A DNA stretch of 64,000 nucleotides. Origin: a virus. Positions 4,511 to 5,063 of the stretch are shown here, in pieces. Numbering within the stretch: position 1 is the stretch's first letter; every line of letters begins with the position of its first letter. The notes under the pieces are model-generated. The model was not told the origin of the DNA. It was given only the letters and a program-made list of their open reading frames with translations, and ran no database searches. The stretch lies in IMG/VR virus record IMGVR_UViG_3300008267_000023, positions 1-64,000 of that record; one strand, written 5' to 3'. The position numbers and the translations under genes were made by a program.

Positions 4511-4536
4511 TTTTGTATCAGATTTTACAAAAGTGC

Positions 4537-4566
4537 TTGACTATATAGAGTGAATAGGAGTAGAGT
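4537..4566 (+). promoter_or_regulatory. Candidate sigma70-type promoter
   Basis: TTGACT (4537-4542) and TAGAGT (4561-4566) are separated by 18 bp. The -35 is good and the -10 matches four of six positions. It precedes the riboswitch-like region and the 4587 gene. Confidence 0.45.
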
Positions 4567-4576
4567 AATCTCCTAA

Positions 4577-4829
4577 CGTTCATCCTATGACTAAAGCACT
4601 TTTGCTTTTAGCATGGGTTCCACTTCTTTCTTTTACTACGCCACAACTCATAGCAACTGAACATCCAGTTACAATAAGTTGCGACGCAGCGTGGGAACTA
4701 ATGGACATCGTTAAAAACGACGATGTAGTTATTCAAAAAGTAGAAGACCGATTGCTACTAGAACTCCGAAAGGATGTTGTAAACAAGTGCTAAAAACTGA
4801 ATAGGACGGAAGTAAGCCGACTCGGAACG
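4577..4829 (+). ncRNA. Glutamine-riboswitch-like RNA 1, split by an ORF
   Basis: The 5' half CGTTCATCCTAT (4577-4588) and 3' half ATAGGACGGAAGTAAGCCGA (4801-4820) to GGAACG (4824-4829) carry conserved parts of the cyanobacterial glnA/Downstream-peptide (glutamine) riboswitch. CGTTC pairs with GAACG and TCCTAT with ATAGGA. The intervening loop contains the whole 4587-4793 gene, whose ends can pair as well (AGCACTT 4595-4601 with AAGTGCT 4785-4791). The class assignment comes from remembered consensus; ligand binding is an inference. Confidence 0.6.
4587..4793 (+). CDS. Small secreted protein nested in riboswitch-like RNA (68 aa)
   Basis: MTKALLLLAWVPLLSF is a signal peptide or N-terminal membrane segment, followed by a small hydrophilic domain with two cysteines (one is the last residue). 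The start codon lies in the 5' half of the riboswitch-like element and the stop lies just before its 3' half, so folding of that RNA would bury the start codon. AGGAG occurs upstream within a small TAGGAG/CTCCTA hairpin. The function is unknown. Confidence 0.7.
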   Translation: MTKALLLLAWVPLLSFTTPQLIATEHPVTISCDAAWELMDIVKNDDVVIQKVEDRLLLELRKDVVNKC

Positions 4830-4830
4830 G

Positions 4831-4875
4831 ATCGTTCATCGGGAAACCGACGCAAAAGCCGACTGAAGGAACGCT
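4831..4875 (+). ncRNA. Glutamine-riboswitch-like RNA 2 (Downstream-peptide type)
   Basis: CGTTC (4833-4837) pairs with GAACG (4869-4873), and TCGG (4839-4842) pairs with CCGA (4847-4850) around GAAA. The segment AGCCGACTGAAGGAACGC matches the conserved 3' side of the glutamine riboswitch family and repeats the 3' half of element 1. It lies 30 bases before a DUF4278 gene, a known type of downstream gene for this motif. Confidence 0.72.
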
Positions 4876-4904
4876 CTTTAGCCTCAAAATTAAGGAGAAC
4901 CCTA

Positions 4905-5063
4905 ATGTCTAAAGCCGTTTATAGAGGGTGTTCATACGACACCGATAATGCAAAAAAAGAGTATGAAACTTGGTATCTCAAAAGTCATGCTCCTGCTCAC
5001 CCACAAAATACATATCGTGGAGTAGCATATCGTCCATGCAAAAACATGGAGGTTCAAAAGTGA
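4905..5063 (+). CDS. DUF4278-like small protein (52 aa)
   Basis: AAGGAG lies eight bases before ATG 4905. The protein contains the paired YRG motifs typical of this cyanobacterial and cyanophage family (VYRGCSYD near the N-terminus and TYRGVAYR near the C-terminus). The family function is unknown. It is the first gene behind riboswitch element 2 and overlaps the next ORF, so the three small genes that follow the RNA form an operon ending in the 5255 terminator. Confidence 0.85.
   Translation: MSKAVYRGCSYDTDNAKKEYETWYLKSHAPAHPQNTYRGVAYRPCKNMEVQK

Follow-up and report, generated by a model that had tools for sequence, protein, structure and literature searches.

In the T4-like cyanophage sequence described here, a glutamine-riboswitch-type aptamer at 4577–4829 is split in two by a 68-codon open reading frame (ORF), and a second, compact aptamer follows just ahead of a DUF4278-like gene. 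The nested arrangement is wider than the first-pass annotation of this sequence could see, as it occurs in both elements of the tandem and in hundreds of phage contigs. The reading favoured here, with a probability of roughly 0.55, is that the nested protein would be made at low glutamine and the DUF4278 protein at high glutamine, through mutually exclusive nested translation and aptamer folding. A broader proposal holds that the aptamer encloses a gene in its own loop and lends it both start-codon control and a stop codon, and that a large part of the T4-like cyanophages carry tandems with two exclusive, glutamine-read outputs; it is put forward tentatively, at somewhat less than even odds.

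The window, that is, the whole 64,000-nucleotide stretch that was analysed, is part of the 83,217-base IMG/VR virus record IMGVR_UViG_3300008267_000023, and its source is a T4-like cyanophage, judging from a psbD-type sequence at its left end and from short T4-like operons. The leader and its surroundings, as read from the sequence and from comparison with relatives, contain the following features:

4515–4528, + strand: NtcA box GTA-N8-TAC, GTATCAGATTTTAC, 5' of the leader promoter
4537–4542, + strand: putative -35 box TTGACT, at a similar position in relatives
4561–4566, + strand: putative -10 box TAGAGT, separated from P1 by 10 nt
4577–4581, + strand: element 1, P1 5' strand CGTTC, invariant across relatives
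4583–4588, + strand: element 1, P2 5' strand TCCTAT, partner of 4801–4806, with covariation in relatives
4587–4793, + strand: nested ORF encoding a two-cysteine protein of 68 aa, ATG 4587, TAA 4793
4595–4601, + strand: inner helix, 5' strand AGCACTT, pairing with 4785–4791 in the unconstrained fold
4785–4791, + strand: inner helix, 3' strand AAGTGCT, where the nested ORF ends, pairing with 4595–4601
4801–4806, + strand: element 1, P2 3' strand ATAGGA, identified by pairing, fold and covariation
4805–4829, + strand: element 1, 3' core GACGGAAGTAAGCCGACTCGGAACG, including the P1 3' strand GAACG (4825–4829)
4830–4832, + strand: 3-nt linker GAT between elements 1 and 2
4833–4873, + strand: element 2, compact glutamine-riboswitch-type aptamer (RF01739, 34.6 bits, E 8e-6)
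4892–4897, + strand: Shine-Dalgarno sequence AAGGAG of the downstream gene
4905–5063, + strand: DUF4278-like gene, 52 aa (PF14105, E 1e-4; phrog_5049, E 7e-9)

In element 1 the P1 strands pair over 5 bp and the P2 strands over 6 bp, which bears out the first-pass statement that the outer stems match exactly. The nested ORF occupies the P2 loop, so the aptamer halves do flank the 68-codon gene as had been claimed, and, because it begins at 4587, the A and U of its AUG fall within the P2 5' strand, placing the start codon in the 5' half. In the predicted ligand-free ensemble, P2 closes over the 212 intervening nucleotides with a probability of about 0.5 and P1 is populated at about 1%; a fold with both helices enforced lies 2.2 kcal/mol above the minimum free energy. 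A further 7-bp pairing between the first codons and the stop region had also been proposed, and this inner helix is present in the unconstrained minimum-energy fold of the window and kept in most of 23 window-like relatives (it is absent from L111 and L167). Its 5' strand is nearly codon-fixed, so the helix is confounded with coding and has no independent covariation behind it.

Relatives were gathered by three pattern scans of IMG/VR (at least 120 matches per scan) and from named phages. The same tandem leader recurs across hundreds of phage contigs, in IMG/VR and in cyanophage isolates, and the split that had been described for the window is found in either element; the 3' core of element 1 is identical in at least 120 IMG/VR stretches in a pattern scan and near-identical in isolates. 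Among the IMG/VR matches listed and the isolates, P2 loops are bimodal, being either a short hairpin or 142–229 nt long with an ORF. In variant A, among the matches listed, the distance from CGTTCA to the core is 14–36 nt or 193–229 nt in element 1, and 15–47 nt or 142–199 nt in element 2. An ATG ORF is present in all 307 unique long loops among the matches listed, comprising 91 of 91 in element 1 (55/55 and 36/36) and 216 of 216 in element 2 (116/116 and 100/100). When the sample was drawn using the element-1 core alone, 83 of the 122 elements among the matches listed held at least one nested gene and 23 held two. Viruses of both marine and freshwater cyanobacteria carry the tandem, with a nested gene in most sampled copies. 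Both loops are filled in syn9, S-TIM5, S-IOM18, S-CAM3, P-HM1, P-RSM4 and P-SSM4, and element 2 is filled in P-SSM2, P-SSM7, P-RSM6, S-SSM7 and metaG-MbCM1. Some of the nested genes have been annotated separately as hypothetical proteins (T4-GC 429 and 430), and those in DSL-LC03 and Sf-CH11 carry no annotation. A tblastn search of phages with the ORF of the window gave no match, as ORFs of the window type form a subgroup met here solely in IMG/VR contigs. Element 2 of one contig (L100) has an unusual AT-rich P2 loop of 47 nt with an internal repeat TTAGGATTCTTAATA, between the short and the ORF-bearing sizes.

The ends of the nested ORFs are fitted to the RNA. Among the matches listed, the nested AUG lies at +9 to +12 from CGTTCA in nearly all long loops, and in 109 of the 116 variant-A cases of element 2 it begins within the P2 helix; no Shine-Dalgarno sequence was seen 5' of the nested AUGs. 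In 207 of 216 element-2 ORFs among the matches listed, the stop codon belongs to the aptamer core. In variant A, the stop is at +15 of a 25-nt core (110/116 among the matches listed) and is UGA or UAA, in the context GAC-GCA-AAA-GCC-GAC-UGA; in variant B, it is at +12 of a 22-nt core (97/100 among the matches listed) that reads GAC-GCA-AAC-GAC-UGA, which is exactly three bases, or one codon, less. Many element-1 copies likewise stop at the UAA of GCAAGUAAG. In the group to which the window belongs, the stop lies just 5' of the P2 3' strand, meaning that ribosomes reading through the 3' half cannot be a universal feature. Core length and stop are intact in 69 of 69 ORF-bearing cores of element 2, as against 5 broken among 46 short-loop cores (among the matches listed; one-sided Fisher 0.009, relatedness ignored). 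In element 2 of S-CAM3 (L332), an exception to the stop-in-aptamer rule, an early TAG lies 16 nt before the core, and what follows up to the P2 3' strand is left untranslated.

The pairing of the two P2 strands is conserved across the ORF. The mean P2 length is 5.6 bp in element 1, compared with 4.4 bp after partner shuffling, and 6.8 bp in element 2, compared with 4.0 bp (0/2000 in both cases); over 110 element-2 protein clusters it is 6.1 versus 4.4 bp when permuted (0/5000). In 48 joined halves, both sides of a pair are changed in 86 cells versus 38 in shuffles, and the P2 covariation score is 0.29 versus 0.05–0.12 with the partner strand slid. Among relatives, P1 is invariant and 100% paired, and P2 is paired in 86.9% of cells, with compensatory changes in 5 of its 7 pairs. 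The earlier note had looked to covariance of the outer pairing as decisive, and P2 does covary, beyond every permutation. Furthermore, untranslated leader bases 5' of the AUG are paired with C-terminal codons in 97% of cells versus 76% when permuted across 110 protein clusters, which indicates that protein coding alone is not a sufficient explanation. On this comparative evidence P2 forms across the nested gene; the covariation is evidence of P2 formation and not of regulation by P2.

The nested genes are real genes by the evidence of their sequences. Their median dN/dS is 0.30 for element-1 ORFs and 0.46 for element-2 ORFs, which points to purifying selection, and exactly two cysteines are found in all 169 distinct proteins checked (54/54 in element 1 and 115/115 in element 2). 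The protein families of the two elements are homologous (hhalign probability 97%, E 5e-11). The predicted structure of the element-2 protein is a helical hairpin whose cysteines lie near the two ends (pLDDT 85.5), and the model of the window protein is weaker (pLDDT 71.2). Matches in PHROGs are to phrog_504 and phrog_6471, families with no assigned function; no relative was found in Pfam or the PDB, and Foldseek returned insignificant matches only. The label "secreted" that had been given to the window protein may hold only for proteins of the window type, and most relatives have no basic N-terminus. Divergent proteins occupy both loops in L124 and L132. In L193, a nested protein of the element-1 type lies in the element-2 loop and is fused in frame to a DAKAD tail supplied by the aptamer, a sign of exchange between the two loops.

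Element 2 of the window was said to be complete and to contain no gene, and both points stand: P1 (4833–4837 with 4869–4873) encloses a P2 (4839–4842 with 4847–4850) capped by a GAAA loop, and RF01739 matches at 4831–4877 with a score (34.6 bits, E 8e-6) just below the gathering score of 35. Among relatives, element 2 scores 35.0–42.7 bits in 10 of 13 loci tested, and slightly under 35 (33.3–34.2 bits) in L036, L004 and L006. Where element 2 is intact, the linker measures 3–6 nt in relatives. The GAACG-GAT-CGTTC sequence, made of the P1 3' strand of element 1 and the P1 5' strand of element 2, may form a competing hairpin (predicted probability about 0.25), which is located just 5' of the element-2 AUG wherever the element-2 loop is filled. 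The assignment of the downstream gene to DUF4278 holds in part, with a PF14105 match (E 1e-4) of 22.9 bits that stays under the gathering score of 25.3 and is the reason why the gene is called DUF4278-like here, and with a match to phrog_5049. A DUF4278-like ORF is the next one after element 2 in 181 of 185 relatives among the matches listed, and it is presumed to be the controlled output of the tandem. DUF4278 proteins have a known relative in the N-terminal part of IF17, the glutamine synthetase inactivating factor (PMC6316151). In two contigs, a manA RNA (RF01745, 168–189 bits) occurs within a few hundred bases after the tandem leader (L040 586–780, L095 4460–4657); an Rfam search called none in the window. 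In S-CREM1 (L004 1487–1585), a published glnA annotation of 44 bits and 99 nt (PMC9964418) covers both elements, so the tandem had been read as a single element.

The promoter region places the leader in a nitrogen-related context. Among the matches listed, an NtcA box is found within 110 nt in 149 of 185 distinct upstream regions; shuffled sequences give about 6, and 4% of the random windows contain one. Relatives commonly have a TATAAT-like, sigma-70-type -10 box 7–10 nt before CGTTC, so transcription is expected to begin about where the riboswitch begins, and by its promoter sequence the transcript of the window should start at about 4573. NtcA sites in cyanophages have been reported before, with riboswitches unmentioned (PMC3037559). 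Around the -10 box of the window (4555–4575) there is an inverted repeat, TAGGAG...CTCCTA, and relatives have TGTGTTA/TAACACA, AGGTC/GACCT, GGTATG/CATACC or TAGGGG/CCCCTA at this place; the arms vary in concert around a constant -10 box and reach at least 5 bp in 160 of 185 leaders among the matches listed, versus about 20% in shuffles.

Regarding family membership, Rfam at the gathering threshold gave no match in the whole window, and a search by E-value returned element 2 and two chance microRNA matches only. In the Rfam comparison that had been proposed earlier, RF01739 matches element 2 just below its cut-off, and the split element 1 of the window is left uncalled by every Rfam model; RF01704 has no match in the window either. 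Even the compact element 1 of S-PM2 reaches only 24.6 bits with RF01704 (cut-off 33) and 24.4 bits with RF01739 (cut-off 35), and in L010 an RF01704 match of 33.0 bits covers element 2 only, where RF01739 scores higher. Of the P3 helix of the RF01739 consensus, variant A keeps 2 bp and variant B nothing, and the element 1 junction has no consensus GAA; given this reduced P3 and junction, element 1 is termed riboswitch-type and is not filed as an RF01739 member.

The phage elements resemble the type 1 glutamine riboswitch (RF01739, glnA) in their P1 (CGUUC/GAACG), in the U-A and C-G pairs that open P2, in the GACGSAA core, in their tandem occurrence and in their site 5' of DUF4278 genes. They differ in that one or both copies hold a whole gene in the P2 loop, in their reduced junction and P3, and in the distance of just 3–6 nt between the two copies. 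With RF01704 (Glutamine-II, Downstream-peptide) they share the CGUUCA and GGAACGG blocks, a short ORF and the picocyanobacterial setting, a likeness that is weak by score (24.6 bits for compact element 1, cut-off 33); the short ORF of RF01704 lies 3' of the aptamer (PMC2864571), whereas the phage ORF is inside it. Weinberg described in 2010 both glnA RNAs in tandem and the Downstream-peptide motif, in which short ORFs lie downstream (PMC2864571), and a pseudoknot is part of the published fold of glutamine-II (PMC6698751). The nearest coupling of a riboswitch to a small ORF that was found is the B12 riboswitch of M. tuberculosis ppe2 with uPPE2, in which riboswitch, translated uORF and downstream gene are also coupled via translation (PMC11260477). 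There, however, a translational OFF switch acts first on the uORF, which affects the next gene by a stop/start overlap, and a statement that the aptamer encloses the uORF was not found in that paper (PMC11260477).

In the proposed mechanism, low glutamine would signify nitrogen stress, in which the NtcA promoter would be active and P1 and P2 would open easily. Ribosomes would then start at the nested AUG and advance to the 3' half or across it. Their presence on the nested gene, chiefly at the stop codon inside the 3' half, would prevent the aptamer from folding; the two-cysteine helical-hairpin protein would be made and expression of the DUF4278 gene would be low. At high glutamine, the ligand would stabilise P1, P2 and P3, the AUG would be trapped in P2 and nested translation would be off, and the downstream ON switch would raise the DUF4278 protein, so that a single RNA would give two opposite outputs. 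The hairpin across the linker, in which the two elements pair through their adjacent P1 strands, could act as a competing fold. Nested translation and aptamer folding probably exclude each other, which would make the nested protein and the DUF4278 protein alternative outputs. The sense of control, with the nested ORF off and the downstream gene on at high glutamine, is suggested by analogy with the published ON behaviour of glutamine riboswitches, both types of which increase expression with glutamine and precede DUF4278 genes (PMC6316151). Against the mechanism, the cores found in phages depart from those of the family: compact copies of element 1 still score below the Rfam cut-offs, and P3 is missing from variant B. 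The low predicted occupancy of P1 in the window, the lack of a visible Shine-Dalgarno sequence at the nested AUGs and the position of the stop in the window group also speak against it. The interpretation given by the first-pass annotation, in which ligand-dependent folding controls the start of the nested gene as well as the downstream genes, is thus partly supported overall.

An explanation to be taken seriously, if an unlikely one, is that the P2 loop is merely a harmless seat for a small gene that is translated on its own terms, with no meaningful regulatory coupling. Cellular type-1 elements tolerate P2 loops of up to 180 nt with no ATG ORF, short loops are found alongside ORF-bearing ones among related phages, and an ORF of the element-1 type has been found in an element-2 loop (L193), all of which agree with a site that accepts cargo. 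Group I introns, which are self-splicing mobile elements, carry homing-endonuclease ORFs in a peripheral loop and offer a parallel, since there too a structured RNA surrounds a gene with its two halves; the phage leader differs in being of a small riboswitch type, with no splicing and no endonuclease family match. If the gene were neutral cargo, however, the positions of its start and stop codons in the loop should vary; instead, the AUG is tied to the P2 stem, the stop comes from the aptamer core and the core changes in codon-length steps.

Improbable, in our judgement, is a reading of the split RNAs as relics that no longer sense glutamine, with P1 and P2 kept as a hairpin for RNA stability or processing, or as a thermometer at the start codon of the nested gene. 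The reduced P3 and junctions of element 1 and variant B, and the scores of element 1 under the Rfam cut-offs, would suit such relics, but P1 and the core hardly vary in sequence, both the NtcA promoter and the class of gene downstream fit the known glutamine regulon, and element 2 exceeds the RF01739 cut-off in several relatives, including one with a nested gene in element 1 (L020). That the ORFs might encode glutamine-sensing leader peptides, which act by ribosome stalling or attenuation and have no function themselves, is suggested by the presence of small ORFs within a nitrogen-related leader; it is very improbable in view of the constant two cysteines, the purifying selection and the homology between the families of the two loops. 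The composition of the proteins, with Gln at 3.3% and 4.7% of residues and no codon enrichment, was a further ground for rejecting a glutamine leader peptide. Lastly, the motif is short and element 1 has no Rfam call, which could suggest an unrelated gene between two chance motif matches or an annotation artefact, but this is refuted by the hundreds of contigs, the bimodal loops, the covariation and the permutation tests.

No homologue of the nested proteins was found in 390 cyanobacterial genomes (54 of which carry RF01704), a weak negative as the search had no positive control, and a search for nested loops in 151 genomes of the picocyanobacterial family gave 1 match versus 1 control match, as expected by chance. 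Within the limits of these searches, the nested design thus seems phage-specific. The P2 loops of cellular cyanobacterial elements (up to 180 nt) were considered as nested genes and rejected, the longest ATG ORF in them having 27 codons and none being comparable to those of phages. The first-pass annotation knew of no described riboswitch with an ORF in its own loop, and in the open-licence literature searched there is likewise no published description of a gene inside a riboswitch loop. A survey of tandem riboswitches counted a tandem only where no intervening ORF was observed (PMC9481103). If the present reading is true, riboswitch loops can host genes, and searches that reject large insertions or intervening ORFs, of which that survey is an example (PMC9481103), have missed a whole class. 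It would also provide a testable case of exclusion between translation and aptamer folding in published phages (syn9, P-SSM4 and S-TIM5), and would tie phage small proteins (phrog_504, phrog_6471, T4-GC 429/430) to the nitrogen status of the host.

Two strong RF01704 matches and a phage-like glutamine element (L458, L461 and L295) occur in a 7.8 Mb planctomycete (Blastopirellula) metagenome-assembled genome (G002), where they are probably cyanobacterial or cyanophage contamination. At the left end of the window, the psbD-like sequence (4–943) is split by the ORF list into overlapping frames, 4–759 and 674–943; an internal stretch near the join is apparently missing relative to D2, presumably owing to a broken gene or an assembly error. 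Further downstream, an ORF at 2486–2866 has an HNH-like motif (CAYCG...IDHIVPQSQGG...NVLCCCVKCN) and may encode a homing or restriction-type endonuclease.
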